Virus record (IMG/VR): IMGVR_UViG_3300046812_000446
Span: 1-22,078 of that record
Direction: 5' to 3' (one strand)
Source of the DNA: a virus
Length of the DNA stretch: 22,078 nucleotides
The translations under genes and the position numbers were made by a program. Numbering within the stretch: position 1 is the stretch's first letter; each line of letters starts with the position of its first letter. Of the stretch, positions 310 through 17,452 are shown in pieces. Below the pieces are notes generated by a model. It did not search any database. It saw nothing but the letters and a program-made list of their open reading frames with translations, and had not been told where the DNA came from.

Positions 310-634
310 GAGCTTCTAACACATCTTTCCAACTTTCATAAGCCTCGCCTTCAGGATCTATCCCGGTTAAGTCCTTGCCAAACAATCTCGCGACTCGCAT
401 GATGGCGTTGTGATGTTTTTCTTTGATGAGCACAGCCATCAATCCCGCACACTGCTGAGGTTTATCACCTTGCCGTTTGCGACTGTCGTTGAAGTATTTG
501 TACTGAACTGTCTTGTGGCACTGGAAAGCTGTCGCAGTCTTTATTTCTTCTAAGCGTTCAGCGTCAAGCTGAAACAATTCGCCTTGGCCCTTACGAAAAG
601 GGCACGTGACGCATGGTCTTTTCAAATCAAACAT
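296..634 (-). CDS. DUF6283-like cysteine-rich phage protein, 112 aa
   Basis: The N-terminus carries PCVTCPFRK (about residues 7-15), followed by FQCHK near residue 38, QQCAGLMAV near 61 and an HNAIMRVAR segment near 76. The ordered pattern CxxCPFR ... CH ... CAG ... N-x-x-MR matches what I recall of the DUF6283 family, small proteins of phages and actinobacteria with a presumed metal-binding Cys/His set and no established activity. ATG at 634 is preferred to the GTG at 637 because AAGGG then sits 7 bases upstream. Family assignment is from memory; metal binding is inferred. Confidence 0.65.
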   Translation of the reverse strand: MFDLKRPCVTCPFRKGQGELFQLDAERLEEIKTATAFQCHKTVQYKYFNDSRKRQGDKPQQCAGLMAVLIKEKHHNAIMRVARLFGKDLTGIDPEGEAYESWKDVLEAHGRS

Positions 635-659
635 CACGTGTCCCTTTTCATCCTCCCGG

Positions 660-941
660 TTACGTCAAGTCTACGTTGTCACCAATCTCAACTAACACGT
701 CACCGAAGGTTACGTCCCGATCTTCGTTACACGCCTTCAGCCACGCACTATACGCATAACTGTTGAGCTGGTCTGCTTTTCCGTTTGATGAATGCCAATC
801 CGTCCCGATAGATGTGAGATATTTAGCTGCGGCGCAGATAGTATTGTCACTATAGAGAAAGGGCTCATTCTTCGGTTGTTTTTCCAACCACTCCTTGAAT
901 CCTGCGAGTGATGGTAAGTCCCAGTTGGGGTTATTGAGCAT
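660..941 (-). CDS. Hypothetical protein, 93 aa
   Basis: This is a soluble, mixed-composition protein with many Asn, Asp and aromatic residues (WDLPSLAGFKEWLEK at the start, an acidic VEIGDNVDLT end). I do not recognise a family. Start 941 is chosen because AAAGGAG lies about 9 bases upstream; a rival frame beginning at 949 has the same Shine-Dalgarno almost touching its ATG. It is the first gene after the minus-strand promoter near 973 and is followed by the DUF6283-like gene. Confidence 0.65.
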   Translation of the reverse strand: MLNNPNWDLPSLAGFKEWLEKQPKNEPFLYSDNTICAAAKYLTSIGTDWHSSNGKADQLNSYAYSAWLKACNEDRDVTFGDVLVEIGDNVDLT

Positions 942-965
942 TGGTCCATTCTCCTTTAGTTGCTT

Positions 966-1003
966 ACTTCGTATTATACCACAGTATGCACGCGAACGCT
1001 ACT
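966..1003 (-). promoter_or_regulatory. Extended -10 promoter for the leftward genes below 941
   Basis: On the minus strand, TGTGGTATAATAC occupies 983-971: a perfect TATAAT with the TG of an extended -10 element one base upstream. No good TTGACA lies at 16-18 bases, as is usual for extended -10 promoters. Transcription would begin near 966 and run into the gene starting at 941, 25 bases further on, with its AAAGGAG in between. A nearly identical 13-mer occurs on the plus strand at 4029-4041. Promoter activity is inferred. Confidence 0.6.
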
Positions 1004-1661
1004 GTGATGGTAGCAACTCCTCGACAGCGATCATATGCTCGGATAATTCAATCACTGCTTGTCGTCCATCCTTTTCGGCTTCTTTAAGTAGTAGTGGATA
1101 CCCGCTATCAATCGACGCCTTAACCTCATCCCGGTTAGCAGTGCGACTTTCGCAGAACCACCAAATGTCTTCTGGATTCCCTATTCTGATGAGCCACTCT
1201 TTTTCTACGCCAGTGCGGAATGGTGTATATTCCAGCGTAGTCCACACGGCTACCGCGCCTGGATTTCGTTCGATCATAAGACCAGGAGGGTTAACCGCTC
1301 CTATATCTTCCAAGTCCTTGGGGTTGCGTTTCATACGCGGCTTAGTCAGGAACGGGCACGCAGTCGCGGAGAAGATCGCACATTCAAGATGACACGGCGG
1401 CTCTGATGTTGTTCTGGTCACCGTACACATTGGACCTATCACAAAGCTCATGTACTTGCCGAGCTTATCCCCACAAACCCAACACAGATGCTTCTTGACC
1501 GCGATGGCACGCTTGTAATAATCAGCAATCCTGAAGTCTCTCGTACCATCCGGCATAGTCTGAACAAACCAGGGAATTGGGAATCCCCTAGAATCTAGTG
1601 GGAGATGCTTCATATGTGGTGGAAGTGGCGGTAGGTCCGCCCGCAGTGAATGCTCAGTCAT
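999..1661 (-). CDS. Putative zinc-binding phage protein, 220 aa
   Basis: After a proline-rich start (LPPLPPHMKHLPLDSRGFPI) comes a basic helix and then a cysteine cluster: CWVCG near residue 60, GPMC near 77, PPCHLEC near 88 and ACPF near 101. The spacing looks like a treble-clef or zinc-ribbon type fold. The text pattern 'CWVCG ... FVIGPMC ... SEPPxHxEC ... ACPFL' is one I associate with recurrent uncharacterised phage proteins. The C-terminal half is tryptophan-rich and acidic. AAAGGAGG is 4 bases before the ATG, and the start overlaps the upstream stop (ATGA). Function unknown; nucleic-acid binding is only a guess from the cysteines. Confidence 0.75.
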   Translation of the reverse strand: MTEHSLRADLPPLPPHMKHLPLDSRGFPIPWFVQTMPDGTRDFRIADYYKRAIAVKKHLCWVCGDKLGKYMSFVIGPMCTVTRTTSEPPCHLECAIFSATACPFLTKPRMKRNPKDLEDIGAVNPPGLMIERNPGAVAVWTTLEYTPFRTGVEKEWLIRIGNPEDIWWFCESRTANRDEVKASIDSGYPLLLKEAEKDGRQAVIELSEHMIAVEELLPSQ

Positions 1662-1867
1662 GTGTCCTCCTTTACCTTTGGCGTGACATCTTCGAACTGA
1701 AACAGACGACTAGACAGTTCGGACTTAAAGTTTCCGAACTCTACCGTGCGTAAAGTGAAGTTGCCACTGAGTTGCCACGTTGTCCCCTCCCGGTTAGTCA
1801 CGTATAACTGACAGTAGACATGAGGCACTCCTGGAGCTTTCATGTATTGAATTTTGAAAATGGTCAT
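1658..1867 (-). CDS. Small hypothetical protein, 69 aa
   Basis: The ATG at 1867 has AAAGGAGG a few bases upstream and overlaps the TGA of the preceding gene, so it is preferred over a start 15 codons earlier. The protein is beta-like with alternating hydrophobic residues (FKIQYMKAPG, VYCQLYVTNRE) and a charged tail. No family recognised. One copy of the dispersed TAACCGGG motif lies inside it (encoding Asn-Arg). Confidence 0.65.
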   Translation of the reverse strand: MTIFKIQYMKAPGVPHVYCQLYVTNREGTTWQLSGNFTLRTVEFGNFKSELSSRLFQFEDVTPKVKEDT

Positions 1868-2064
1868 GCAGCCTCCTTTGGGAACCGACAGTTTGGGCAA
1901 CGATGCGTCCATTCATCACTGCTCCAGAATGGAGGCAGGGCCGTCCACCCCTCCCTTCGTAGCACTTTCACGGCTAATTGAAAGTCATCTGTAGCCGTGT
2001 CCAATGTTTCATGACAGTTGTCGCACTCAAATTCAATCAGACCCTTGATCCAATGGAGCGTCAT
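1864..2064 (-). CDS. Small zinc-ribbon-like protein, 66 aa
   Basis: Two CxxC pairs, CDNC near residue 14 and CPNC near residue 56, flank a short mixed helix/strand core (DDFQLAVKVLRREGW). This is the usual layout of a small zinc ribbon that could bind nucleic acid or a protein partner. GGAGGAGG lies 7 bases before ATG at 2064. It overlaps the upstream gene by 32 bases, and its stop overlaps the next start. The zinc site is inferred from the cysteine spacing; no specific family is assigned. Confidence 0.7.
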   Translation of the reverse strand: MTLHWIKGLIEFECDNCHETLDTATDDFQLAVKVLRREGWTALPPFWSSDEWTHRCPNCRFPKEAA

Positions 2065-2245
2065 GCACTATCCTCCTCCGTTCATATTCAGTCAGAACAG
2101 CGTTTTCCACGTGGCAATACAACTCCTGGTCAAATATAGGGTCATAAATTCCGTGTTTCTCTATAAAGTCAACAAGTGCCAGGACCTTGGCGTATGAAAC
2201 ACCAAGTTCCTGGGCTATGGAGAAGTAAGGAAATGATAAACTCAT
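2033..2245 (-). CDS. Small helical, possibly HTH-containing protein, 70 aa
   Basis: Residues 8-32 (beginning FSIAQELGVSYAKVLALVDF) read like a helix-turn-helix: a helix with AQELGVS, then a second helix. The remainder is acidic. GGAGG is 4 bases before ATG at 2245. The start overlaps the stop of the upstream 58-residue gene (ATGA), indicating translational coupling. A DNA-binding role is inferred only from the HTH-like pattern. Confidence 0.65.
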   Translation of the reverse strand: MSLSFPYFSIAQELGVSYAKVLALVDFIEKHGIYDPIFDQELYCHVENAVLTEYERRRIVHDAPLDQGSD

Positions 2246-2418
2246 GTATCCTCCGTTGAATCAACCTCGTCGAACCAGCTAATGAATTCGTTGAGGGTTG
2301 TCCTATCTTCTTCGCTTGCAGCCTCGACCAATGCTTTTCTCTTTTCATTGTATGGCCCATCTTCGTTGACTATATCTCCTAGTAGATCAAAAAACTGCTC
2401 AAGCTTTGCCTTGTTCAT
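2242..2418 (-). CDS. Small acidic hypothetical protein, 58 aa
   Basis: This frame runs from ATG 2418 to TGA 2244-2242 with AAGGAGG six bases before the start. The product begins MNKAKLEQFFDLLGDIV, continues as charged helices and ends EVDSTEDT. It fills an otherwise empty stretch, overlaps the upstream gene by 20 bases and the downstream start by ATGA, so it fits the operon perfectly. It is highly acidic and alpha-helical. No family is recognised. Confidence 0.75.
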   Translation of the reverse strand: MNKAKLEQFFDLLGDIVNEDGPYNEKRKALVEAASEEDRTTLNEFISWFDEVDSTEDT

Positions 2419-2653
2419 GGACTTCCTCCTTCTTGGGGTACGTGACCCCTTTGCCGAATTTCCATTCGAAGTTCGTGCAGTCGCCGCCGTCGGTGATAAT
2501 CACCCGGTTAATCACTCCTATCAGTGCAGCGGGTCGTTCAGTATAGGACTTTGCAACAGTGACTGCTTCTTCAGCACTAACGTAACGGCGCACATATTCA
2601 TATGTGTCGTTTGGATAGAATATGCACACTGAGAATTCTTTTTCGTTACTCAT
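2399..2653 (-). CDS. Hypothetical protein, 84 aa
   Basis: The protein has an alternating N-terminal half (EFSVCIFYPNDTYEYVRRYV), then a helix (SAEEAVTVAKSYTE), then another strand pair ending in a charged tail. The beta-alpha-beta-beta look is typical of small phage accessory proteins, but I cannot name one. Its ATG overlaps the TGA of the upstream membrane protein gene. A TAACCGGG copy lies inside it. Confidence 0.65.
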   Translation of the reverse strand: MSNEKEFSVCIFYPNDTYEYVRRYVSAEEAVTVAKSYTERPAALIGVINRVIITDGGDCTNFEWKFGKGVTYPKKEEVHEQGKA

Positions 2654-3051
2654 TTGTTATTTCCCCAATCTATTGGAGGTAATCTTATGGGTTTTGGGAC
2701 CATGGGCTGGGGCTCTTCTGGCTTTGGCTCTTCTGGCTTTGGCTCTTTGGGCTCTTTGGGCTTTTCGGGCTTAGGCCATGATGTTTGTTTCGGCTGCGGC
2801 GTCGTTCGCGGCGGTGCAGGTCGTCCTACCGGTCGAATCGCCCGTGTGCTAGGAGGCGCAAACGATGATATTTCATCCAGAAGCTTTTGACCTTTGGATG
2901 GAGGAGTCATGTGCTGTTGCTTCGGCATCATATCTGGAGTAATTTTTTCTTTATTGGTGACTTGCACAAAGCAGATCGCATACCCAATCATGGCCCCGAA
3001 AGCAAATCCACCTATAGCAAAGACCCCTGCTAAGATTGCAATGTTCATCAT
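2650..3051 (-). CDS. Membrane-anchored proline-rich protein, 133 aa
   Basis: Starting at ATG 3051 (ATGA overlap with the upstream stop), the protein opens with a hydrophobic segment of about 25 residues (MMNIAILAGVFAIGG onward, through residue 31), then a soluble linker and a long Pro/Lys/Glu stretch with KPEKPKEPKEPKPEEP-type repeats near residues 94-119. An N-terminal anchor plus a stiff proline-rich rod is the architecture of TonB-like and some spanin-like envelope proteins, but no domain identifies either. An ATG at 3099 would overlap the previous gene by 52 bases and put a charged leader before the membrane segment, so it is disfavoured. Role unknown; the topology is inferred. Confidence 0.65.
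   Translation of the reverse strand: MMNIAILAGVFAIGGFAFGAMIGYAICFVQVTNKEKITPDMMPKQQHMTPPSKGQKLLDEISSFAPPSTRAIRPVGRPAPPRTTPQPKQTSWPKPEKPKEPKEPKPEEPKPEEPQPMVPKPIRLPPIDWGNNK
2711..2770 (-). repeat. Short tandem repeats encoding the Pro-Lys-Glu rod
   Basis: On the plus strand, ggctcttctggcttt occurs twice back to back (2711-2725 and 2726-2740), followed by three shorter variants built on ggctcttt. On the coding strand these give the KPEEP and KEPKEP runs. The array is prone to slippage, so rod length may vary between relatives. Confidence 0.7.
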
Positions 3052-3299
3052 CGCTTGGCCATTCTCATTGTTTCTAGTGATGTGTCTGACCAAGCCCATT
3101 GATCAATTTCTTTAGCAAGGGTGACCAATGTTTCAAACTGGTCTGTGGTGTCTTCATTGAATAGAGAACGCACAATGTTTCTGTAGTGTCGTGCTCCGGC
3201 AAAGAACACTGATCGTAGAAGTGCTACTGTTTCTGGTGTCATTTCTGGCATTTCAGTCAGTAGCTCTTGCCAGCCGTCCTCGATCGGAGTATCATTCAT
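3048..3299 (-). CDS. Helical hypothetical protein, 83 aa
   Basis: The protein is acidic and alpha-helical, with MTPETVALLRSVFFAGARHY in the middle. The FFAGARHY phrase resembles a small recurring phage protein of unknown function that sits in accessory operons. ATG at 3299 overlaps the previous stop by one base (TAATG on the coding strand), and its stop overlaps the next start. No motif suggests activity. Confidence 0.65.
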   Translation of the reverse strand: MNDTPIEDGWQELLTEMPEMTPETVALLRSVFFAGARHYRNIVRSLFNEDTTDQFETLVTLAKEIDQWAWSDTSLETMRMAKR

Positions 3300-3511
3300 T
3301 ATGAACTTTCCACTTCTTTCTTGAGATGCCCTTCTGGAGCGATGTTGTCTAATTTGATGATGTGGAGTGTAAGAAATTTTTCATCAGAACTCCAGAATAC
3401 TGAATCCCCATCATTGAGGTCTAGTTCTCTGACAATGTCTACTGGAATAGTCACTACAAGACTATTCCCACTTTGCCGGATGTTACTATGTCTTGATAAT
3501 GCTTTACTCAT
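3299..3511 (-). CDS. AbrB/MazE-type (SpoVT-AbrB) DNA-binding protein, 70 aa
   Basis: Residues about 10-42 (QSGNSLVVTIPVDIVREL, then DLNDGDSVFW) match the swapped-hairpin AbrB/MazE/SpoVT fold: R-x-x-GNS-hydrophobic-TIP-x-x-h-x-x-x-L-x-L-x-x-GD. Such proteins bind DNA as dimers and act as transcription regulators or as antitoxins. No toxin gene with a recognisable MazF/PemK sequence is adjacent, so a regulator of the phage operon is the simpler reading. It is the first gene of the leftward block, beside the divergent control region. A GAGAAG stretch upstream of ATG 3511 serves as a modest ribosome site. Confidence 0.8.
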   Translation of the reverse strand: MSKALSRHSNIRQSGNSLVVTIPVDIVRELDLNDGDSVFWSSDEKFLTLHIIKLDNIAPEGHLKKEVESS

Positions 3512-3603
3512 GGTCTTCTCACTTATTCCTCAGGTTTGTTGATGTAACGTTGGTGATTAATTTTTTACTTGTCAACTGCTCCGGGTTGTGGTAAGTCGGA
3601 ATT

Positions 3604-3702
3604 CCTAACGGACGCAGTGCTCTTTGCAGTGATGCTTTGTGCCACGTCGCGTTAGCGGACTCCTTTAAAAGCTGTCGCTTTTCAAAGGAGTGATTTTGTA
3701 TT
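3604..3702 (+). promoter_or_regulatory. Structured 5' leader of the rightward genes with SD-burying hairpin
   Basis: Two nested inverted repeats fill the space before the small-terminase-like gene. The arms ctaacggacg (3605-3614) and cgtcgcgttag (3645-3655, one bulged G) could close a first hairpin. The second is much stronger: ACTCCTTT + AAAAGC (3659-3672), loop TGTC, then GCTTTT (3677-3682), a bulged C and AAAGGAGT (3684-3691). The right arm contains the only Shine-Dalgarno, AAAGGAG, 12 bases before ATG 3703, so folding would hide it. Translational control is inferred. There is no U-tract, so it is not a standard terminator. Confidence 0.65.
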
Positions 3703-4014
3703 ATGTCAAAATCCAATGAGCCTGATATCACCTTCCCGGAATCAGCCCACGAATATAACGATCCGGACCTTTCTCCCAAAGAGTTTCTGCTGGCCATTAT
3801 GCGTGACCAGCGGTTGCCTGTCCCTACGCGCATGGAAGCAGCAGCCAAAGTCGCTGTGTATGAGCATCCCCGGTTAGCGCAGACGAACCAAGACATTTCT
3901 GGTGGTCTTAGAATCGTTATCGAAGGTGGATTGCCTGCTCTTCCCGGAACTGACATTATCATGCCGAATCTTAACCGGGAACCACTGGCTAAGAAATCGA
4001 ATGGGTCAGGGTAA
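3703..4014 (+). CDS. Terminase small subunit-like protein, 103 aa
   Basis: The core segment SPKEFLLAIMRDQRLPVPTR followed by MEAAAKVAVYEHPRLA (about residues 25-60) matches a recurring phage protein annotated as small terminase: a 'xPxEFLLxVMRDPxLPxxxR' helix followed by 'AAAxxAPYxHPRLA'. Small terminases recognise the packaging site on the concatemer and hand it to the large subunit. Its place directly before the large terminase supports this. It lacks an obvious separate HTH and ends with a low-complexity tail, so certainty is moderate. Two TAACCGGG copies, one in each orientation, lie in it. Confidence 0.6.
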   Translation: MSKSNEPDITFPESAHEYNDPDLSPKEFLLAIMRDQRLPVPTRMEAAAKVAVYEHPRLAQTNQDISGGLRIVIEGGLPALPGTDIIMPNLNREPLAKKSNGSG

Positions 4015-4028
4015 GTTTCTGTGTACAT

Positions 4029-4044
4029 TGTGGTATAGTACCAC
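4029..4044 (+). promoter_or_regulatory. Extended -10 promoter overlapped by a palindromic operator-like site
   Basis: TGTGGTATAGTAC (4029-4041) is an extended -10 box with hexamer TATAGT at 4034-4039. It matches the minus-strand promoter near 973 at 12 of 13 positions. The same bases form a perfect 6-bp inverted repeat, GTGGTA-TAG-TACCAC (4030-4044), which could be an operator or a tiny hairpin. Transcription would start near 4046 and lead into the terminase leader. No convincing -35 is present. Confidence 0.5.
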
Positions 4045-4057
4045 GTGAAGTTTAAAA

Positions 4058-4183
4058 ATGCAAACATCACATAGTATTCATGTATCCGCGCCTGTTGGGT
4101 CCTCCCTGTGCATGGTGCGGCTAGGGGAGTCGGTCGGCTGTGGCAGCAATCTCACAACCGACTCCCCGTCCATTTGGGTTTAG
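4058..4183 (+). CDS. Possible leader peptide ORF, 41 aa
   Basis: An ATG at 4058 opens 41 codons ending TAG at 4181-4183, three bases before the terminase ATG. The product (MQTSHSIHVSAPVG at its start, rich in Ser, Gly and Cys) resembles no known family, and a GAAG upstream is only a weak ribosome site. The region also forms a strong hairpin, so it may be untranslated. If translated, it would make terminase synthesis translationally coupled. Confidence 0.25.
   Translation: MQTSHSIHVSAPVGSSLCMVRLGESVGCGSNLTTDSPSIWV
4124..4167 (+). ncRNA. Strong hairpin in the terminase leader (unclassified RNA structure)
   Basis: GGGGAGTCGGT (4124-4134) pairs perfectly with ACCGACTCCCC (4157-4167), 11 bp. An inner TGTG/CACA pairing can extend the stem. 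No U-tract follows, so it is not a classic Rho-independent terminator. It lies 20 bases before the large terminase start, whose own Shine-Dalgarno is weak. A similar GGGGATCGGC...GCCGATCCCC hairpin follows the capsid gene at 15572-15627. It could be an attenuator, a processing signal or part of a packaging site. Confidence 0.5.
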
Positions 4184-4186
4184 TCT

Positions 4187-5571: not shown

Positions 5572-5587
5572 GCAATGAGGTCATTAA

Positions 5588-6435: not shown

Positions 6436-8730
6436 ATGGTTGCTGTAGGAAATATAGGAGCAATAGCTAATACTTCGGGTGCGACACTGTCCCTGACTGG
6501 TGTCGATGTTGCATCTGGGTCAACCATCGTTGTAATAGTACAGGAGCAAAACACTTCCGGACTAAACGGTACCATTTCTGATGGTGTCAATACGTGGACC
6601 TTGCAGCTATCAGCAGCTCTAAATGGAGGTTTTGCCAACGGCAACGGCATGATGTTCACCGCTGAGAATGCGTCGCTCAGTGGCGGAACAATTACCTATA
6701 CCAAGAAAACGAGTGGTGTTGCTGCTGGTATGACGGCCATCTATGTGACCGGCGTTCCACAACAATCTGTTGTTGCTGGTAGCGGTAAAACTCGTGTTGG
6801 GTCTGGCCGTGGACCAGGAATAGATACAGGGATTGCTCAACACGATCTTGCTGTTGGTGGAGTCTGTATTCAAGGTGGAGGTGTTACCTTCACACAAGCG
6901 AGTGATGGTCCTTGGATTTCTCCACCAAATGCGGATAGTGCAAATAGAACCTTTGGCGGAACACAACGCGCTTACAAAAACAATCCTTTATACGATCCAT
7001 CGTGGAACATTGCAAAAAACTACGCGGCGTTTGTTCTTGCAATCAAATCTTCAGTCTCCTGCACACTGGATCTTACACAAGAAGCGCAGACACTTTCTTC
7101 GGTCGTCACTGTTGATATTGTCGGCACGCTCGGCCGTACACAAAGCAACAATACGATTTCGGCAATAGTTAAGGTCAGTGTAGAAGGAACACTTGCTTGT
7201 ACTCAAAGCAATAATACGATTTCTGGTATAATCTCTGCCATTAGTGCCGGTATACTCGGTATCACGCAAACGGCTGAAACATTAGTTTCAAATGGAATAG
7301 TTTCTGTTCGTAGTACATTAGGAATCACACAATCTGTTAACACATTATCTGCTACTGGATCGTCATCCATTTTGGGGGCACTAAGTACTTCTCAAGCTGC
7401 TAACATTCTTTTATCAGTTGGTAGGGTTACTGTAGAAGGTATTCTTAATCTAACCCAAGCTAATCACACTATTTCGGCTCAGGGCAAAGTTGATGTAAGA
7501 GGTTTATTAAGTACTACTGAAGCTGATGACACGATATTGGCATCTGGAAATGTCCCCTTTCCTGGTCTTGCTGGTTCTCTTAGTATCACGCAAGTTGCAC
7601 AGACTTTATCAGCCACAGGTAAGATTCCTTATGTAGGTATTCTTAATCTTACACAAGATAATGAAACTTTTTCTGCTGATGGAAATGTTATAGTCAGTGG
7701 TACTTTTAATCTAACGCAAGCAAATGAAACCTTTTCAGCCGGTGGAAGAATTATAGTTGGTGGTGATTTACTTCTTACACAAGCAAATGGAACTTTAGTC
7801 GCTGCGGGGAAAATCTTAGTCAGTGGTGTAGTCAGCGTTATACAAGAAAATGAAACTTTATCGTCTACTGGTTTTGTTGCTATTCGTGCTACGCTTAGCA
7901 TCATACAAGTTGCAGAAATATTATCAGCAGACGCTACTCTCACTGCTAGTGGCACTCTAAATTCTTCTCAGACTGCACAGACTCTTTCGGCAACCGGTGC
8001 AGTTCTTTTTGGTATTGTTGGTAATCTTTCTGTTCTTGAGGATTTAGATACAGTAGATATTTCTGGGCTAATTACTGGATATATTGGTGCATTGAATGTT
8101 GTTCAAGAAGATCACACATTAGATTCTGCAGGTTTGGTGGTTGTTCGTGGTACACTTAATACGATACAAGCTGCTGAAATCTTATCTGCAACTTCTGTTG
8201 TTAATGTTTCTGGTAATCTTGTTGTAATTCAGACAACCCAATCATTTTCAGCTATTACTAGAGTTACGGTTTCTGGTGTATTGAATGTTACGCAAGCGGC
8301 AAATACTCTAGCTTCAACTGCAACTGGTCCAGCTTTTGCTGCTCTTACTGTTGCGCAAGCTGATCAAATAGTTTCTGCTTTTGCTGCGGCTCTTGATGGA
8401 CCAGAATGTAGGCTTCATAAGGTACAAGAAGATCAATCGATTTCTGCTTACATTCCGGTTGTAGTAAGCATCGGATTAGGAAAAAATACAACAGACTGTA
8501 TAGATTTAGCACAAAAGATGTTGGAAGGACAACTTGAACTCTCTGGTGAAGAATCTCTGCCAGATCCGCCTCCAGAATGGATTACTAATTTTTCAAGAGT
8601 AGTGAAGTCACAACCCTTGTTGATTAGACCAAGAAAATTGATGGGAACGCAGTTATTAGTGAACACATATCATATGAAACCAATCGGGAAACCTAAACCT
8701 CCCAAACTATACTTGACAAAGGTAGCCTAA
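6436..8730 (+). CDS. Repeat-containing fibre-like protein, 764 aa
   Basis: Residues 1-200 form a Gly/Ser/Thr-rich beta domain (ATLSLTGVDVASGSTIVVIV, later NGMMFTAEN and GMTAIYVTG) like capsid or tail appendage domains. Residues about 205-665 are some 22 tandem copies of a 21-residue unit, consensus G-x-L-x-x-T-Q-x-x-x-T-L-S-A-x-G-x-V-x-V-x, which should fold as a repetitive beta rod. Residues 690-764 hold a linker and a C-terminal module with SQPLL and TYHMKPIGKPKPPKLYL, also found in the gene at 9303. A TAG sits immediately before ATG 6436, fixing the earliest start, and the ribosome site is weak. It is probably a head or tail fibre; location on the virion is inferred. Confidence 0.8.
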   Translation: MVAVGNIGAIANTSGATLSLTGVDVASGSTIVVIVQEQNTSGLNGTISDGVNTWTLQLSAALNGGFANGNGMMFTAENASLSGGTITYTKKTSGVAAGMTAIYVTGVPQQSVVAGSGKTRVGSGRGPGIDTGIAQHDLAVGGVCIQGGGVTFTQASDGPWISPPNADSANRTFGGTQRAYKNNPLYDPSWNIAKNYAAFVLAIKSSVSCTLDLTQEAQTLSSVVTVDIVGTLGRTQSNNTISAIVKVSVEGTLACTQSNNTISGIISAISAGILGITQTAETLVSNGIVSVRSTLGITQSVNTLSATGSSSILGALSTSQAANILLSVGRVTVEGILNLTQANHTISAQGKVDVRGLLSTTEADDTILASGNVPFPGLAGSLSITQVAQTLSATGKIPYVGILNLTQDNETFSADGNVIVSGTFNLTQANETFSAGGRIIVGGDLLLTQANGTLVAAGKILVSGVVSVIQENETLSSTGFVAIRATLSIIQVAEILSADATLTASGTLNSSQTAQTLSATGAVLFGIVGNLSVLEDLDTVDISGLITGYIGALNVVQEDHTLDSAGLVVVRGTLNTIQAAEILSATSVVNVSGNLVVIQTTQSFSAITRVTVSGVLNVTQAANTLASTATGPAFAALTVAQADQIVSAFAAALDGPECRLHKVQEDQSISAYIPVVVSIGLGKNTTDCIDLAQKMLEGQLELSGEESLPDPPPEWITNFSRVVKSQPLLIRPRKLMGTQLLVNTYHMKPIGKPKPPKLYLTKVA
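7056..8430 (+). repeat. About 22 degenerate 63-bp repeats coding the 21-aa fibre unit
   Basis: Units such as GTFNLTQANETFSAGGRIIV and GILNLTQDNETFSADGNVIV follow one another in register at 21-residue spacing. Two copies carry short insertions (after NVPFPG, near residue 372, and near LFGIVG). At DNA level the copies are diverged, so they are old duplications kept by selection on the protein, not a recently expanded array. Confidence 0.85.
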
Positions 8731-8748
8731 TCTCATAGGAGAATTATC

Positions 8749-9300
8749 ATGGTTACAGTTACAGATGCAGATGTGGGGCAAGAAGCTGCAACTGAAGGAG
8801 TGCTGGAAGGTATTGTTATGCTGACAGCACCAACTCAATACGACAATGATTATTTTTGTCTGATGGATGGTGATGTAATTCTTTTCAATATTCATGTGGC
8901 TACAAGTGCTATCGGTCCTGGGAGTGTTCTTCTAGCTGATGGGACTATTAGCTATCAAAAGTTGACATTAAAAAGTATTCCTAAGGGAAGTAGTTTTGAA
9001 CTTACAATGGCTCTTCCTCCTGTTCTTTCTGTTCTTGTTCCTGATACTGCTGTTTCTGGTGATCCAGACTTTACGCTATCTTGTACTGGAACTGGATTCA
9101 CTAAAGGGACAGTTATCAAGTTTGGTAGTAATGATGAACCTACGACTTTTGTTTCGGATACAGAAGTAACTACAGGCGTGAAGCCATCTCTCTTTGCTCC
9201 GGCTGTAGTCCCGGTATCTGTACACACTGGAACATTAACTTCAGATCCATTGGATTTTACTTTTACGGAACCAGTTGTTGAAGATACTTATAAGGGTTGA
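8749..9300 (+). CDS. Protein with Ig-like (IPT/TIG-type) domain, 183 aa
   Basis: The N-terminal half contains strands and DNDYFCLMDGDVILFNI, a possible virion-docking domain. The C-terminal half, about residues 88-175, reads as an Ig-like beta sandwich: PPVLSVLVPDTAVSGDPDF, TLSCTGTGFTKGTVIKFG, then TFVSDTEVTTGVKP and VPVSVHTGTLTSDPLDFTF. This is the typical IPT/TIG order (pro-x-x-x-x-G, GxxF, xGxxV). Such domains decorate capsids and tails and often bind host surface glycans. TAGGAG lies 9 bases before ATG 8749. The domain name is from pattern; receptor binding is inference. Confidence 0.75.
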   Translation: MVTVTDADVGQEAATEGVLEGIVMLTAPTQYDNDYFCLMDGDVILFNIHVATSAIGPGSVLLADGTISYQKLTLKSIPKGSSFELTMALPPVLSVLVPDTAVSGDPDFTLSCTGTGFTKGTVIKFGSNDEPTTFVSDTEVTTGVKPSLFAPAVVPVSVHTGTLTSDPLDFTFTEPVVEDTYKG

Positions 9301-9302
9301 TA

Positions 9303-9596
9303 ATGGACTGTGTATTGATGACACAACAGATGCAAAGTGGGAGGAACAGTTTGCGTGTTACTTCTACTTGTATATCCCCATTCTGGATGTCTGATCTTGC
9401 AAGATATGTACGTTCACAACCATTGTTGATGAAGTCCGGTGGAACATCAGAGTTTCTAGCTCATACGTATCATTCAAAACCAATTGGACAGCCAATATCT
9501 CCTGTTCTATCTGTTAGACAAACGTATCACTCGAAACCAATGGGAAGACCAGGATTCCCAATCTTGGCTACAAGAGGTTCTCTTATTCCGGTTTAA
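9303..9596 (+). CDS. Small protein sharing the fibre C-terminal motif, 97 aa
   Basis: AAGGG lies 6 bases before ATG 9303; a TTG at 9297 would also be in frame but is less well placed. Residues about 37-90 contain VRSQPLLMKSGG, then LAHTYHSKPIGQPISPVL and VRQTYHSKPMGRPGFPIL: two adjacent copies of TYHSKP(I/M)GxPxxPxL. The same SQPLL + TYHMKPIGKPKPP arrangement closes the 764-residue fibre-like protein. The shared module suggests that both dock to the same partner, or that this gene is a duplicated fibre tail. No known family; function unknown. Confidence 0.7.
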   Translation: MDCVLMTQQMQSGRNSLRVTSTCISPFWMSDLARYVRSQPLLMKSGGTSEFLAHTYHSKPIGQPISPVLSVRQTYHSKPMGRPGFPILATRGSLIPV

Positions 9597-9599
9597 TGC

Positions 9600-11123
9600 A
9601 TGACGACTATTTCCAACGGCGTGATTACTACAACTCCCGGTAATGCTCTGCAAGAGCTGCTGGTAGCTCCTGATATTGTGCCTGGAGATGTTGTTAGTTA
9701 TCAAACATGTAAAGAAATCTATCTCTATCACCCACTTGGGGCACGAATTGCTGAAGGACCAGTTTCACTAGCTCTTTCACAGAAACGAGAAATTAAAGTT
9801 CCGAGTAGTCCTAATGAAAAATGTGCTGATGCTTTCAGGGAGGAATGGAAAAGTATGGGTTGTGATTTTCTAGTTCACAACCTTATTACCGTGAGTAGGA
9901 TTTATGGGATTTCATCTATTGCGATGTTGATAGATGGAGTTAAGAGTAACGATAAAATTGATTTTTGGGACCTTCCTGATCTCAATATTGCTTTTAATGT
10001 TCTTGATCCTCTTAACACATCTGGGAGCTTGGTACTTAATCAGAATCCCAACGCCATGGATTTTATGAAGTATTCGCAGATAGCAGTTAGCGGAACTTCT
10101 TATCATCCTTCTCGTTCGGTTACAGTGACAAATGAAAAGCCGATTTATTTGGGGTATACAACTTCTGCTTTTGGTTTTGTGGGTCGTAGCGTTTATCAAC
10201 GTTCTTTTTACCCTCTTAAATCGTACATCAAAAGCCTTATTGCGGACGACTTGGTTGAAACTAAAGTCGGTGTTTTAGTTGCCAAGATCAAACAGCCTGG
10301 AAATTTCGTCGATAATATCATGGCTTTTGCTGCTGGTTTCAAGCGATCTCTTGTAAAAGAGGCTGAAACCGGGAATGTACTCAATATTACGCCTGATGAG
10401 GACATTGAATCCCTTAATATGCAGAACTTAGAGGGTCCTCATGTTCTTGCGCGTAGAAATATTCTCGAAAACATTGCAAATGCGGTCGATATGCCAGTCA
10501 AACTCCTCACTCAAGAGTCTTTCGCAGAAGGTTTTGGAGAAGGATCTGAAGATGCGAAAGCCGTGGCGCGCTACATGGACCGTCTTCGGGAGACGATGGA
10601 CCCTGTATATCGATTCTTAGATCGAATTGTAATGCATCGGGCATGGAGTCCATCATTTTTTGAGTCTATGAGAGTGCAGTTTCCTGAGTATTACGGGAAA
10701 ATACCATATAAGGAAGCCTTTTATCAATGGTTGAATAGTTTTCAAGCTATATGGCCTTCGTATTTGCGCGAACCTGACTCTGATCAGGTCAAGGTTGACG
10801 ACACAAAAATGAAGGCAGCTATCTCGATTTACCAAATTCTTCAGTTTGATTTTGATCCAGAGAACAAAGCACGACTGATTGCATGGATTGCTGATGCTGT
10901 CACAAACAATAAGCTCCTATATTCGAGTCCATTAAACCTTGATTATGAGAAATTACTTAAACAATTGAAGCAAGATCATAAATTTAAGGTAGACCAACAA
11001 AAAGCGGGTTTGGAGCCTGAAGAAAACGTACCTGATTTCCCCAAAGTTAAGATGGCACGCGCTGATTCTGGTGAAACAGGCGTAATTCAGCTTCTTGAGC
11101 ATTTGAAAAATGCCGCTAAATAG
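9600..11123 (+). CDS. Portal protein, DUF1073 family, 507 aa
   Basis: The sequence matches the DUF1073 portal family: an N-terminal region with CKEIYLYHPLGARI, a middle section with DLVETKVGVLVAKI and a conserved SFAEGFGEGSEDAKA near residue 310, then a helical C-terminal part. Portals form the dodecameric ring through which the terminase threads DNA and to which the neck attaches. The length is typical. InterPro groups this family with the N-terminus of Acb1-containing proteins, but I see no C-terminal 2H (two HxT) phosphoesterase here, so this is a plain portal. The start ATG 9600 has no strong Shine-Dalgarno. The next gene overlaps the end by 14 bases. Confidence 0.9.
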   Translation: MTTISNGVITTTPGNALQELLVAPDIVPGDVVSYQTCKEIYLYHPLGARIAEGPVSLALSQKREIKVPSSPNEKCADAFREEWKSMGCDFLVHNLITVSRIYGISSIAMLIDGVKSNDKIDFWDLPDLNIAFNVLDPLNTSGSLVLNQNPNAMDFMKYSQIAVSGTSYHPSRSVTVTNEKPIYLGYTTSAFGFVGRSVYQRSFYPLKSYIKSLIADDLVETKVGVLVAKIKQPGNFVDNIMAFAAGFKRSLVKEAETGNVLNITPDEDIESLNMQNLEGPHVLARRNILENIANAVDMPVKLLTQESFAEGFGEGSEDAKAVARYMDRLRETMDPVYRFLDRIVMHRAWSPSFFESMRVQFPEYYGKIPYKEAFYQWLNSFQAIWPSYLREPDSDQVKVDDTKMKAAISIYQILQFDFDPENKARLIAWIADAVTNNKLLYSSPLNLDYEKLLKQLKQDHKFKVDQQKAGLEPEENVPDFPKVKMARADSGETGVIQLLEHLKNAAK

Positions 11124-12721: not shown

Positions 12722-12722
12722 G

Positions 12723-12740: not shown

Positions 12741-12770
12741 TAAACGAAGCCTGCAACATAGGAGATTAAC

Positions 12771-13751
12771 ATGGCAGGAACTGTGAGCGTCGACGCACTT
12801 CTAGCCGACGCGGTTTCGAAGATGGATGCTCTCAACAAGCGCATGGACGCACTTGAAGTGGGCGAAAAGAATATCATCAAGGGAGATGATGATGATGACG
12901 ACAAGAAGTCAGACGGTGCGGGCGCAAAGGCTCGTGGGGACGACGATGACGATGATGACGGGAGCAAAAAGGATGGCATTACCGCTCCCAAGACGAGGAT
13001 CAAGGATGACGACGGCGATAAGAAAAAGGATGATGCAAGCGTCGCTGCGGCCAAGGTGACAGGCGACACCAAGAAGGCCGACACCAAGAAGGCCGACGCC
13101 AAGAAGGCCGACGCCAAGAAGGCGGATGACGGCGAACTTGAGATCAAGCACGGCAAGGAGAAGGGCGACTCGTCGAAGAAGGCCGATGATGACGACGACA
13201 AGAAATCCGACGACGATGACGATGACAAGAAGTCGGATGATTTCCCTCCCAAGAAAGGGGAGAAAGACGATTCGGCGCGTGCTGATGAAATCGTAAGCCT
13301 TCGCCAGCAGATCGAGCGGCTCAGTGCCATGATGAAGCCTCGGTCTGACGACGAACATGCAGCCTTCGCGGATGCGCAAGCTCGCGCCGATGCCGTATTC
13401 AATGGATTTGGAACTCGTGCTCCTCGTCCTCTCGAGGGTGAAGTCCTCCTGGACTATCGGAAGCGGCTTGCTACCAAGCTGAAGACTCATTCTATTGCTT
13501 GGAAGGGCGTGAAGCTTTCCCAACTCCCGGAAGAGGCTTTTGGTATTGCTGAGAGCCAAATCTACGCAGACGCGGATACCGCTGCCGCTAACCCGGTTGA
13601 TCTGGGAGAGGGTGAGTTGCGGACTGTTACCAAGATCGATCCATCGACCGGAGTGCGGTCGAATGTCTTCTATGGCAAAGAGTCCTTTGTCAAGGCGATG
13701 GGTCGTCCGGGGCGCAGGGTTTCTTCTTTCCGTACCTTGCAATCTGTTTAA
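12771..13751 (+). CDS. Scaffold-like head protein with acidic/lysine repeats, 326 aa
   Basis: Residues 1-30 include an amphipathic helix (VDALLADAVSKMDALNKRMD). Residues 35-165 are runs of Asp alternating with Lys (GDDDDDDKKSD, DTKKADTKKADAKKADAKK), likely disordered. Residues 170-190 form a coiled coil (ADEIVSLRQQIERLSAMM), and the C-terminal 120 residues (RADAVFNGFGTRAPRPLEGE, then DYRKRLATKLKTHS and AESQIYADAD) match a domain I associate with proteins sited between DUF2213 and DUF2184 genes. Location and charge suggest a scaffold. TAGGAG precedes ATG 12771. Confidence 0.75.
   Translation: MAGTVSVDALLADAVSKMDALNKRMDALEVGEKNIIKGDDDDDDKKSDGAGAKARGDDDDDDDGSKKDGITAPKTRIKDDDGDKKKDDASVAAAKVTGDTKKADTKKADAKKADAKKADDGELEIKHGKEKGDSSKKADDDDDKKSDDDDDDKKSDDFPPKKGEKDDSARADEIVSLRQQIERLSAMMKPRSDDEHAAFADAQARADAVFNGFGTRAPRPLEGEVLLDYRKRLATKLKTHSIAWKGVKLSQLPEEAFGIAESQIYADADTAAANPVDLGEGELRTVTKIDPSTGVRSNVFYGKESFVKAMGRPGRRVSSFRTLQSV
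13065..13124 (+). repeat. Four 15-bp tandem repeats in the scaffold-like gene
   Basis: gacaccaagaaggcc occurs at 13065-13079 and 13080-13094, then gacgccaagaaggcc at 13095-13109 and a last copy ending ggcg at 13110-13124. They encode D-T/A-K-K-A. Near identity between copies indicates recent slippage within the disordered charged region, so copy number may differ in related phages. Confidence 0.9.
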
Positions 13752-13788
13752 TCTTCTCCCGAACTCTTGAAGAAGGACTAGAGGCATC

Positions 13789-14418
13789 ATGGTAGCAAAT
13801 ATCGCATTCAACCCTTATCTCCAGACTAATGCGGCTGGAATGTTCACCGTTGAGTCCGATGGACTCATTGTTGGTACAGCTTTCCCTGATCCGGCGGCAC
13901 GCTTCGCGCTTTCCGGTGGCTGGCTAGCGACAGCAGAAACTCTGCCGATGTTCGGCGGAGTGGCCATTTCCGAAAACGTCGCAACGGAGCGGTCTACTGC
14001 TCCGGCAACTCCGACACGAGCAGATATTGCGTTGGGTCCTGTAATTGCTCGCGCGACAGCTTACGCGAACCTTACCGGGTTTAGCGTATTTGATCAGAAC
14101 TATGCGGCGGTGAATACTCCACAATCTCCGGTTCCTGTAGTCGGAAGCGGTGGAATGGTGAATTTCTATCGCCTCGGTTCTGGTGCTCGTGTGGCATTGG
14201 CCATTGATCCAACGTTGGTGACGTTGGAAGGTGGTCTTATCACCGCACAAGTTTCGTGGGACTTTACTAACCAGAAGATCATTGCCTTTGCGACAACGGC
14301 ATTGGCAGTGAAGATTCTATCCATCAAGTCCTCGGGATGCATGGTTCCATCGTACTCTGCTGGAACTGGTTTCGTTACTTGGAATTACAACGGAGCAGCG
14401 GCAGTCTGCTTGCTGTAA
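13789..14418 (+). CDS. Probable capsid decoration/structural protein, 209 aa
   Basis: The protein is beta-rich and Ala/Gly/Thr-rich, with an MFGGVAISEN phrase near residue 53 and a C-terminal TGFVTWNYNGAAAVCLL. It sits immediately before the major capsid gene, where decoration or cement proteins are usually encoded, and shares its codon usage. AGAGG precedes ATG 13789. I do not recognise a named Pfam domain, so decoration is inferred from composition and place. Confidence 0.75.
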   Translation: MVANIAFNPYLQTNAAGMFTVESDGLIVGTAFPDPAARFALSGGWLATAETLPMFGGVAISENVATERSTAPATPTRADIALGPVIARATAYANLTGFSVFDQNYAAVNTPQSPVPVVGSGGMVNFYRLGSGARVALAIDPTLVTLEGGLITAQVSWDFTNQKIIAFATTALAVKILSIKSSGCMVPSYSAGTGFVTWNYNGAAAVCLL

Positions 14419-14434
14419 ACTTCAACCTGGACCC

Positions 14435-14456
14435 AGGCCGGGGCCAACTCTGGCCT
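14435..14456 (+). promoter_or_regulatory. GGCC-rich alternative hairpins before the capsid gene
   Basis: Two mutually exclusive stems are possible: AGGCC (14435-14439) with GGCCT (14452-14456), or GGCCA (14442-14446) with TGGCC (14451-14455) around the loop ACTC. The capsid ribosome site TAGGAG follows at about 14466. No U-tract is present. An mRNA-processing or translation-tuning role is plausible but unproven. Confidence 0.35.
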
Positions 14457-14478
14457 AACCTAACCATAGGAGAGACAC

Positions 14479-15501
14479 ATGGGTTCGATCGCTCCGGCAT
14501 TTGTTCAGGTACATCCTTCCTATATGATGCCTGATACACTTATGCCTTATTCCCAGGCTTCTGGGGCGTTTGAGTTGCTTGCCAGTGGCGCGCCACTCAT
14601 TCGACTTTCTGAGGGTGATCTGTACGCTTACATCAAGCGTGTAGATCTTCGCACGAGGATGGCGGCTGGTCAATCTTCCTATAACCAGTTGCCCGGTGTT
14701 TCGTTTGCGATGTCGCAGATCAGTGCTCCAACGTACCTCCTGCGGGTTCGTGCAGAATACGACCACCACGACACGGCGGCGATGGCACGATGGGGTCTCT
14801 CAATCGTCGATGCGCATCGTCTTGGAATGCGGCAGGCGACGTTCCAGCTCATTCGGAATGGATTGCTGTACGGCTTCAATCCGGCTAATGGCGAAGGTCT
14901 CGTCAATGCCAGCGGAGCCACGGCAGTCAGTCTCCCGGCAGATAGCGCCGGGAATACTACGGTCGTTACATATGATAACGGCCAGATGGCATTCTTCTTG
15001 ATATCTTTAATTAGTGCCATCAAGTCCAGGACCAATCAACTCGGCATTGGGCGTAAGTTCGTGTTCGTTGGCCCGCAGCGAACTCTCGGTGCCATGGAAT
15101 ATCAGAATATCGTTCAGCTCACCAGTTATCAGCGGGTCGGTGCTGGTTCTACATCTACGGCGGGTGTTGTCAAAGACGTTTTGGAAATGAACGATGACGA
15201 AATCATCTGGGCCTATGACGATACGCTTATCGGCAAGGGCGCAGGTGGCAACGACGCGGTGATCATCGTTATGCCTGAGGTGGAGGAGCCGAAAGGTGCG
15301 AGGATTAATACCAACGAATTCGCAAAGCTAACTCCTTCAATGACAGCGTGTACACTCCAGCTTTGCGATATGGCGGCTCCACGCGAAATCCCAGTTCCGC
15401 TCGCCGGCGGAGCGATCGACGTGCTCGCCGAGCAGCGTGTCACTTCCGGTTGGGCCGTCCGTCCGGAGGCGGTTACTATCGTGACGATGCAGTATCAATA
15501 A
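14479..15501 (+). CDS. Major capsid protein, DUF2184-type, 340 aa
   Basis: The sequence has the look of a DUF2184 HK97-fold capsid: an N-terminal arm (FVQVHPSYMMPDTLMPYSQA), then LRVRAEYDHHDTAAMARWGL near residue 90, a central LIRNGLLYGFNPANGEGLVN near 122, a GRKFVFVGPQRTL segment and the C-terminal P-domain ending VRPEAVTIVTM. Gene order (portal DUF1073, DUF2213, scaffold, decoration, capsid) is that of Bcep781-like phages. TAGGAG is 8 bases upstream. GC-rich third positions suit strong expression. The family name is from pattern, not a search. Confidence 0.88.
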   Translation: MGSIAPAFVQVHPSYMMPDTLMPYSQASGAFELLASGAPLIRLSEGDLYAYIKRVDLRTRMAAGQSSYNQLPGVSFAMSQISAPTYLLRVRAEYDHHDTAAMARWGLSIVDAHRLGMRQATFQLIRNGLLYGFNPANGEGLVNASGATAVSLPADSAGNTTVVTYDNGQMAFFLISLISAIKSRTNQLGIGRKFVFVGPQRTLGAMEYQNIVQLTSYQRVGAGSTSTAGVVKDVLEMNDDEIIWAYDDTLIGKGAGGNDAVIIVMPEVEEPKGARINTNEFAKLTPSMTACTLQLCDMAAPREIPVPLAGGAIDVLAEQRVTSGWAVRPEAVTIVTMQYQ

Positions 15502-15712
15502 GTAAGTGTTGCTTACCTATTTAGGGTATCAGTAATATCGAGGCTTCCGGACCAGCTAGGAGGCTTTGATCGGGGATCGGCTTTCGGGCAAGATTCGTAA
15601 GCTGGCGACCTTGCTGTGCCGATCCCCTCCACTTCAGTTGCACCAGCACGAATTGACGTGCTTCAAACTGTTGGGGCGACTGTAAGCGTCCGGTGCATTT
15701 AGGGAGGAACCT
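15502..15712 (+). ncRNA. Structured intergenic region after the capsid gene
   Basis: This 211-base gap holds no ORF but has several inverted repeats: GTAAG/CTTAC at 15502-15516 right after the stop; GGGGATCGGC (15572-15581) with GCCGATCCCC (15618-15627), 10 perfect pairs, with an inner GCAAG/CTTGC; TGCACC (15639-15644) with GGTGCA (15692-15697) enclosing GCACG/CGTGC at 15646-15661. No U-tract follows the main stem. It could attenuate transcription between capsid and tail genes or protect the capsid message. The main stem resembles the hairpin at 4124-4167. Confidence 0.55.
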
Positions 15713-16258
15713 ATGCCTGAACTTTTTATTGGGAATGTTTCAAAGCAAATTCAGCAATTTGCTTATCGTGCGCTAGAGCGACCTGGGATCGTATTGCAAA
15801 CAATTCCTATTGGAGGACAAATTCGTATTGCCCCTAATGGGGCTAGAGCTGATTTAACCATTCAAGAAATTGATTATATTATCGATCAACATAAAACCTA
15901 TGGAATTGCTCCGATAGATGAATTGGACAATGTATCAAGTCCATTTGGTGGAATTTGTTATTCTATCGGTAAACCGATTTCTGCTGAGAAGCTACGTCGA
16001 GCTATGGTTAAGAAGGATGATGCTTTAAAAGATTTTGGGAAGAAGTTGCGCCAGGAAGCGGCGCTTGCTGTGAGTTCTCAAATCGAGGAACAAATTGGTG
16101 CTCCGTTGCGTAATCTCGAAATGAGTTTTACTGAGGAAGAGCCAAGGGGTGGTTATTCGGATGATACGGACCATCTGTCCGAAGGTGTCCGTGTAACCCG
16201 GTTAGCTGACCATGGACCTCCGACGGCAGAGGCAGGACGACGAGGACGTCGTAGCTAA
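15713..16258 (+). CDS. Conserved phage head-tail region protein, 181 aa
   Basis: The opening MPELFIGNVSKQIQQFAYRA, then IPIGGQIRIAPNG and LTIQEIDYIIDQHKTYGI is a pattern I have seen in uncharacterised phage proteins just after the capsid gene. The C-terminal third is charged and ends RRGRRS, probably disordered. It may be a head-completion or connector-region protein, but this rests on position. AGGGAGG is 5 bases before ATG 15713. One TAACCGGG copy lies near its 3' end. Confidence 0.7.
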   Translation: MPELFIGNVSKQIQQFAYRALERPGIVLQTIPIGGQIRIAPNGARADLTIQEIDYIIDQHKTYGIAPIDELDNVSSPFGGICYSIGKPISAEKLRRAMVKKDDALKDFGKKLRQEAALAVSSQIEEQIGAPLRNLEMSFTEEEPRGGYSDDTDHLSEGVRVTRLADHGPPTAEAGRRGRRS

Positions 16259-16270
16259 CTGTAACGAGTA

Positions 16271-16287
16271 TTAGGATAATTTCCTAA
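16271..16287 (+). promoter_or_regulatory. Hairpin covering the ribosome site and start of the next gene
   Basis: TTAGGA (16271-16276) pairs with TCCTAA (16282-16287) around TAATT, burying the AGGA Shine-Dalgarno and the first base of ATG 16287. No other ribosome site is near. Six mainly A-U pairs make this a weak, temperature- or ribosome-sensitive switch at most; coupling to the upstream gene would open it. Confidence 0.4.
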
Positions 16288-16745
16288 TGGATCCTACTTT
16301 TGCAGGATTTAAGCAATGGGTACAGACCCTTATGGGTGTACCTGTAGATCAAATACCAAATGATGATACTCTTCAAGCCGCATACGATGAAGCTTTAAAT
16401 CTTGCTTATTATCTATTGGCTGCAATTCCTAGTCAACCTACATCACCGTCTATTTATGCATTGGCTGTCTATAATTTAGCTGGATCAATATTGATGGAAA
16501 TCGCAGTTGATAATCCAAATAGTACGTTTTGGGAAGATCTTCGGAATAAATTCGGGATAAATTCTTTTACTCCTGGTCTCATTAATTCTGCACATGATCA
16601 ACATACTGGGGAAGGAATGGTGATTCCACCTTCTCTACTTAATGGTCTTACACTATTTAATCTACAATTATTGAAGACTCCTTGGGGACGACGTTATCTT
16701 ATGTTTGCTGGTCAATGGGGTACAATCTGGGGACTAACAGGGTGA
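16287..16745 (+). CDS. Probable head-completion or tail-adaptor protein, 152 aa
   Basis: The protein is helical (FAGFKQWVQTLMGVPVDQIP, then AYDEALNLAYYLLAAIP) and includes an AVYNLAGSILMEIAVDNP segment, like gp6-type connectors. A loop and a TPWGRRYLMFAGQWG end follow. Position between capsid and tail genes supports a connector/adaptor job. I cannot confirm a family. The next gene starts on a GTG overlapping its TGA. Confidence 0.65.
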   Translation: MDPTFAGFKQWVQTLMGVPVDQIPNDDTLQAAYDEALNLAYYLLAAIPSQPTSPSIYALAVYNLAGSILMEIAVDNPNSTFWEDLRNKFGINSFTPGLINSAHDQHTGEGMVIPPSLLNGLTLFNLQLLKTPWGRRYLMFAGQWGTIWGLTG

Positions 16746-17161
16746 AAATCCAATTGGGGTTTGAAAATGTAACTTACACAACACCACGAAGAGGTAAGTC
16801 TGGTCGCTTTGAGAAAAGAAGATTAACAAAAAGTGCTTCAGTAGCTAGAGAGTTAGAAGATGAATTTATGATTGTTGAATCATTTTATAATTTAGATGCA
16901 AAACAGATGTTAGTGACAATGCTAGAAGATGCTTATGCTGATGGTATAGAATCTATGACATCTGGTACACCTAAGTCAGTAGAATTAAAAGATACTGATT
17001 TAACAACAATTCAGGAGAAATTTAAACAAAATCTTAATAATAGAAGATATGATGGTTTATTGTTCAATACTCCAACTGAACAATCTAAAAAATCTGGAAA
17101 ACCAAGTTTTGTAGAAACAGGAACATACAGAGATAATTTCAGAGTGTGGAAGGGGAGATAA
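16742..17161 (+). CDS. Hypothetical neck/tail-completion-region protein, 139 aa
   Basis: GTG at 16742 overlaps the upstream stop (GTGA), with GGGGA about 10 bases before it. An ATG 20 codons earlier would lie inside the previous gene and is rejected. The protein is basic at first (TTPRRGKSGRFEKRRLTKS), then helical with Glu/Asp (ARELEDEFMIVESFYN, MLVTMLEDAYADGIESM), and ends FVETGTYRDNFRVWKGR. The location is where neck or tail-terminator proteins are encoded, so that is a guess. No motif is diagnostic. Confidence 0.65.
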   Translation: MKIQLGFENVTYTTPRRGKSGRFEKRRLTKSASVARELEDEFMIVESFYNLDAKQMLVTMLEDAYADGIESMTSGTPKSVELKDTDLTTIQEKFKQNLNNRRYDGLLFNTPTEQSKKSGKPSFVETGTYRDNFRVWKGR

Positions 17162-17162
17162 C

Positions 17163-17336
17163 ATGATAGCATCTGTAGGAACCATTCTGCTAGTATTTGG
17201 CCTCGTGTGCGCTATCTTGGCGGCAATTTTTCAACCGATCCCGCCTGGAACTCCAGCATGGGGTCGTATTCATCTTGGTTGGCTTGCGATTGCGTTTTTG
17301 ATCGCCGCCATGATTTTTGGAGGGATAAAACTGTGA
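17163..17336 (+). CDS. Two-helix small membrane protein, 57 aa
   Basis: The product has two hydrophobic segments: residues 4-23 (SVGTILLVFGLVCAILAAIF) and 38-54 (LGWLAIAFLIAAMIFGG), joined by a short loop with QPIPPGTPAWGR. GGGGAG lies 5 bases before ATG 17163. It could be a holin-like protein or a membrane-bound tail-assembly factor; the size and two-helix form fit small holins, but no lysis enzyme is near. GTG of the next gene overlaps its stop. Confidence 0.7.
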   Translation: MIASVGTILLVFGLVCAILAAIFQPIPPGTPAWGRIHLGWLAIAFLIAAMIFGGIKL

Positions 17337-17452
17337 CTGAACCCTGTTCCCCGGTTAATAGATCGGGAGGACCGCAAGGTAAGGGGAAACCTTTGCCTAT
17401 TCCGGCCAAGCCGGTATCTCCTGGTGCTTGTTCTAACCCCTCAGCTAAATAA
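17333..17452 (+). CDS. Tiny proline-rich protein, 39 aa
   Basis: GTG 17333 has GGAGG nine bases upstream, overlaps the stop of the membrane protein gene, and its TAA overlaps the ATG of the next gene, so it is tightly coupled on both sides. The sequence (TEPCSPVNRSGGPQGKGKPL and KPVSPGACSNPSAK) is Pro/Gly/Lys-rich with two Cys and no lipobox. Function unknown; a small scaffold or partner of the membrane protein is possible. Confidence 0.6.
   Translation: MTEPCSPVNRSGGPQGKGKPLPIPAKPVSPGACSNPSAK

Follow-up and report, generated by a model that had tools for sequence, protein, structure and literature searches.

The window analysed here, a stretch of 22,078 bases (positions 1 to 22,078 of IMG/VR record IMGVR_UViG_3300046812_000446), is part of the genome of a phage with a contractile tail and carries genes for the portal, the major head protein, the tail sheath and the terminase. 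It raises the question of why a single octamer, TAACCGGG, recurs along it. The preliminary description had counted nine copies and taken them for a functional dispersed motif, and all nine were found, eight on the minus strand and one on the plus strand (Table 1). Across the genomes of a family of uncultured soil phages, the octamer, in this form or as TAGCCGGG, proved to be about ten times commoner than the genes explain. It probably serves as a site at which a DNA-handling protein lands.

Two contigs, G001 (39,170 bases) and G003 (31,907 bases), are near-identical to the window and contain 13 and 9 copies of TAACCGGG, respectively. Window positions are converted into G001 positions by adding 32701, and the window joined to the left part of G001 gives a 54.8-kb composite, referred to as A. 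Genes were called with a simple codon-model script. The replication block of A encodes DNA polymerase A, a UvrD-type helicase, a thymidylate-synthase homologue, a 5-hmdU DNA kinase and a TET-associated glycosyltransferase. The genes for the last three lie side by side at G001 7315-10064 (L045 7315-10064), and their joint presence suggests that the thymine bases of this phage are probably modified or hypermodified. At G001 26015-28294 (L046 6015-8294), two genes share the coding of an archaeo-eukaryotic-type primase, and the gene of a NusG-like antiterminator comes next, an arrangement conserved in the clade. Within the window, a 764-aa predicted protein (gene 6436-8730) contains a 63-base (21-residue) repeat of the type LTQANETFSAxG at 7636-7793. 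When a route to the host was sought through proviruses, the only matches in bacterial genomes were relatives of the head protein, 59 to 62% identical.

Nine copies of the octamer were never reached in 100 dinucleotide shuffles of the window (mean 0.26, maximum 2). In the codon-shuffled check proposed in the preliminary description, permuting synonymous codons within genes left 1.47 +/- 0.66 copies (maximum 4, n=150), and shuffling the order of codons gave an expectation of 1.29 (maximum 4, n=150) versus the nine observed. On the strength of these shuffles, codon or amino-acid bias was rejected as the cause. Moreover, TAACCGGG tops all 8-mers of the window, with a -log10 P of 5.0 versus 4.0 for the highest chance value in 20 scanned shuffles. 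Its one-base variants, a count of which had also been suggested, number 13 versus about 9.6 expected and show little excess as a group, so that the word has to be regarded as sharp; the exception is TAGCCGGG, the second form of the motif in relatives.

Table 1. Copies of the octamer and of its second form in the window (window positions)
Word	Position	Strand	Gene context	Other contigs
TAACCGGG	362..369	-	sense in leftward gene 296-637	present in G001, G003
TAACCGGG	655..662	-	across TAA stop of leftward gene 660-941	
TAACCGGG	1130..1137	-	sense in leftward gene 999-1661	
TAACCGGG	1789..1796	-	sense in leftward gene 1658-1867	
TAACCGGG	2503..2510	-	sense in leftward gene 2399-2653	
TAACCGGG	3869..3876	-	antisense in small-terminase-like gene 3703-4014	aligned copy retained in relative G028
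TAACCGGG	3972..3979	+	sense in small-terminase-like gene 3703-4014	
TAACCGGG	16197..16204	-	antisense in late gene 15713-16258	same in G037
TAACCGGG	17350..17357	-	antisense in small late gene	
TAGCCGGG	20909..20916	-	antisense in late gene 20760-21200	aligned copy retained in G041, G061

The density of copies in the early block, to which attention had been drawn, is mildly significant (five of the nine within 2.15 kb, P 0.036; seven of the nine within 3.6 kb, P 0.003), and these copies do occupy different codon frames, with all three phases represented and the copy at 655 spanning a stop codon. The latter reads TAACCTGG in both near-identical contigs; every other TAACCGGG copy of the window is unchanged wherever a near-identical contig covers it. 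Nothing special was found about the opposed pair in the small-terminase-like gene, which had been thought suggestive. The copy at 16197 is missing from G038 and G039, in which the aligned stretch is 85% identical.

Searches with the terminase and the head protein yielded more than 100 related viral contigs, including records of 75 to 79 kb. The close clade consists of uncultured soil phages with a head protein mostly 87 to 93% identical and a G+C content of 44 to 52%. With words from repeat arrays set aside, the top 8-mers common to at least five phages were TAGCCGGG and TAACCGGG, and the motif of the clade is TARCCGGG (R = A or G), accompanied by a weaker TTRCCGGG. Under an order-3 Markov model, in which the motif itself raises what is expected for neighbouring words, the pooled count of TAGCCGGG was 72 versus 12.3 expected (three copies from an array in G041 still included) and that of TAACCGGG 63 versus 12.5, while the weaker forms TTACCGGG and TTGCCGGG reached 43 versus 14.3 and 56 versus 22.2, respectively. 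The remaining substitutions across the eight positions were mostly close to expectation, and CCGG words are somewhat enriched in the clade generally. When a longer motif was sought, clear information in the flanks was restricted to the first two positions on the 3' side, a C just 3' of the octamer being disfavoured (5% versus 13% after other CCGGG), and no second half-site was present within 30 bases. When the literature was searched for the word, no phage-motif paper was among the matches listed.

Some of the relatives also carry tandem arrays. In G028 (L052 6463-7930), as well as in G043, G022, G030 and G046, arrays of up to about 40 units have a 36-base period, each unit being composed of two half-units, TGGCTCGCT-N9 and TGGGTTTCT-N9, with nine-base spacers that look random. 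The unit length is sometimes off by a base, thus the reading frame is not kept throughout, and the location of the array varies by phage. The repeat word, GGCTCGCT, was not found in the window's phage. A different array, of about 0.8 kb and with a five-base period (GGC plus two variable bases), is located at G041 65331-66100 (L156 5331-6100). Three TAGCCGGG copies of G041 are by-products of this (NNGGC)n array and were removed from the shuffle counts given below.

The excess was quantified in a non-redundant set of nine phages (A, G041, G043, G019, G028, G022, G040, G061 and G046), with the G041 array masked. Together they carry 132 sites; synonymous shuffling leaves 17.5 of the originals in place and creates 11.8 new ones (29 in total), which gives an 11-fold enrichment over the newly created sites, or a 4.5-fold one if the retained sites are charged to the null. 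Sites versus the shuffle mean were 18/4.5 in A, 24/4.5 in G041, 22/7.0 in G043, 22/4.3 in G019, 9/3.0 in G028, 12/2.6 in G022, 12/2.5 in G040, 6/1.6 in G061 and 7/2.5 in G046. Eight of the nine phages exceeded all of their 60 shuffles, and the seven sites of G046 were matched by one shuffle. The phages share ancestry and their sites are not all independent, therefore those P values in which they are treated as independent are optimistic. The two forms are used in different proportions, the TAA:TAG ratio being 16:2 in A, 8:19 in G041 (16 of the latter outside the array), 5:17 in G019 and 2:10 in G022. Enrichment was not found in three relatives with 58% G+C, i.e. G044 (head protein 83% identical), G052 and G055 (both about 70%). 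The view that the octamer is a functional dispersed motif and not a codon artefact is supported, and the excess holds in related phages.

It is the number of copies, and hardly their places, that is kept. In phage pairs of about 70 to 77% identity, each counted both ways, 39 of 246 aligned sites (16%) were identical versus 22 expected from a 9% background. This low positional identity, with its 1.8-fold excess, indicates that most copies have been gained or lost independently while the excess was kept. The preliminary description had made its case depend on conservation of the copies in relatives, and the outcome is divided: positions are weakly conserved, but the excess itself is conserved. 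The mean spacing of sites is 1.9 to 3.5 kb, and regular spacing was rejected, since the sites are no more even than chance, except weakly in G019; those of A and G043 are clustered. Across the nine phages, 56 sites are sense and 68 antisense with respect to the gene (null 4.7:6.7, P 0.41). Among the sense copies, phases 2 and 1 are in use and phase 0, in which the word would start with a stop codon, is rare, while antisense copies occupy all three. No preference for intergenic DNA was seen (8 of the 132 sites versus 8.9% non-coding, P 0.36), which speaks against operators or promoters.

The claim that the octamer is mostly one-way held for the window (8:1, P 0.04), but genome-wide the polarity is weaker. 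Relative to the late genes, 86 sites of the nine phages are minus and 46 plus, an overall bias with P 0.043 against the shuffle null. On a circular map, which assumes 78 kb and on which the terminase positions are approximate for the fragments G040 and G061, the bias is found in the approximately 9.5 kb upstream of the large terminase (29 minus, 7 plus; corrected P 0.0038) and in the 33 kb downstream of it (30 minus, 3 plus; corrected P 0.028), the rest of the genome having 27 minus and 36 plus (corrected P 0.71). The 30:3 ratio shrinks when the asymmetry of the null itself in the late genes (2.65:0.96) is counted. The polarity is therefore real but modest, limited to the 40 kb or so around the terminase and partly a matter of codon composition. 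It is not set by gene direction, because in A the upstream block runs leftwards and the late block rightwards; sites are mostly sense in the leftward block beside the terminase and almost only antisense in the late genes.

An octamer that is oriented, sharp, restricted to a clade, kept in number and indifferent to position and transcription resembles a site used by an enzyme that travels along DNA or processes it. Its closest counterparts are Chi and the nick sites of phage tf. We give about even chances to the explanation that TARCCGGG is an oriented recognition site for a putative DNA-processing protein that acts on the phage chromosome and is most likely encoded within the phage lineage itself. 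Such a protein, possibly a site-specific nickase, a primase or a recombination enzyme, would act during replication, recombination or maturation of the chromosome, and what would matter is a site every few kilobases and not its exact location. Three points are inferred: that selection maintains the octamer, that it is read at the DNA level by a protein, and the class of this protein. The incomplete strand bias, partly compositional, speaks against this explanation, as the known phage nick sites are confined to one strand. Candidate readers among the clade-wide proteins are the primase pair, the NusG-like antiterminator and two unknown proteins, one of 168 aa (A 28792-29298) and one of 125 aa (A 30473-30850). 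The AbrB-like protein (3299-3511), to which binding had been suggested, is an unlikely reader, because a homologue was detected in only one (G022) of eight relatives tested, two of which (G040 and G061) do not cover the region. Tentatively, a phage-encoded system, e.g. the primase or a nickase of the clade, may read TARCCGGG and may have driven the genome to a density of one site per 2 to 3 kb, with reader and word drifting together towards TAA in some phages and TAG in others. If true, word and reader would form a co-evolving system for which phages of this group offer no described counterpart.

One form of the DNA-processing-site explanation, that the octamers are site-specific single-strand nick sites of the kind known from phages T5, phiKMV and tf, cut in virion DNA by a phage nickase, appears rather unlikely to us. 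Phage tf has a similar number of nick sites per genome (14 in 46 kb) at a short, nearly exact, oriented word, with an A/G change between related phages (TACTGTGAC in tf versus TACTATGAC in its relatives; PMC3517423). The phiKMV-group nicks lie on the non-coding strand, at CGACxxxxxCCTA/CTCCGG, much like the octamer with its antisense placement in the late genes, and for site-specific nicks in T5-like phages the function is still reported as unknown (PMC3517423). However, known nick sites occur on one strand and at similar positions in relatives, whereas here 46 of the 132 sites are plus, even the window is divided 8:1, and positions turn over; furthermore, no nickase gene was identified.

We likewise regard it as rather improbable that the octamer is a Chi-like site modulating the host RecBCD or AddAB, in which case the phage would carry the Chi word of its host. 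The octamer is oriented, GC-rich, located within genes, blind to gene direction and indifferent to position, as is Chi. Of the two properties by which proteobacterial Chi sites were surveyed, over-representation and polarity (PMC8022716), the former is found in the phages at the 11-fold level (4.5-fold with the retained sites charged to the null), and the latter is seen in the roughly 40 kb around the terminase. On the other hand, the octamer is not one of the five proteobacterial Chi forms (PMC8022716). The densest of 150 Pseudomonadota genomes, all from a single phylum to which the host may not belong, has about 90 copies per Mb versus about 330 per Mb in the phage. Two Pseudomonadota genomes examined in more detail showed no obvious replichore polarity: what seemed striking in a subset of the copies was lost when more of them were included.

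A by-product of codon-pair preference or of context-dependent mutation, with no reader at all, would agree with the general enrichment of CCGG words in the clade and with a strand bias that partly follows codon composition. We consider it decidedly unlikely, as the excess is specific to the octamer, with most one-base variants near expectation, both senses and several codon phases are in use, and the three relatives with 58% G+C lack the enrichment.

A further form of the DNA-processing-site explanation, in which the octamers are initiation sites of the archaeo-eukaryotic-type primase on lagging strands, is a long shot. Each of the six motif-bearing relatives with contigs that extend over the region has the two-gene split primase, and the site spacing of 2 to 3.5 kb is comparable to the lengths of Okazaki fragments. 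However, most known replicative primases recognise two or three bases, a weak primase match was also obtained in G052, which has no enrichment, and the strand preference is missing from part of the genome.

Least probable, and to us very doubtful, are stoperators or operators, i.e. dispersed sites at which a phage repressor stops transcription: the number of sites per genome, the drift of the motif between relatives and the mostly sense sites of the leftward block recall the cluster A mycobacteriophages, in which 20 to 30 sites per genome are oriented with transcription (PMC6550527), but here the sites are not so oriented (sense and antisense as in the null, late-gene sites antisense), no intergenic preference is seen, and the AbrB-like protein, the only repressor candidate examined, is missing from most relatives.

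To our knowledge, oriented words that are indifferent to position are few in phage genomes and mostly unexplained. A clade that keeps their number while position and one base drift provides natural material for a comparative search for the reader and its function.

Compared with known systems, the octamer shares with the cluster A stoperators, which are asymmetric and dispersed, a drift between relatives, but it is a shorter word, not oriented with transcription, and no repressor has been identified for it. Like Chi (GCTGGTGG in E. coli, and the other proteobacterial forms), it is an over-represented, oriented, GC-rich octamer within genes that ignores their direction; unlike Chi, it has another sequence and two near-equal forms, and no density near that of the phage was found in the bacterial genomes sampled (150 Pseudomonadota). 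In contrast to the nick sites of Pseudomonas putida phage tf (5'-TACT/RTGMC), which keep to one strand and to similar positions in relatives, it occurs on both strands in part of the genome and its positions turn over. At the same time, it resembles those sites in being a short, exact, oriented word, present about once per 3 kb and with an A/G variant between relatives, and it resembles the sites of the phiKMV group in its placement on the non-coding strand and in the TA and CCGG of the word.
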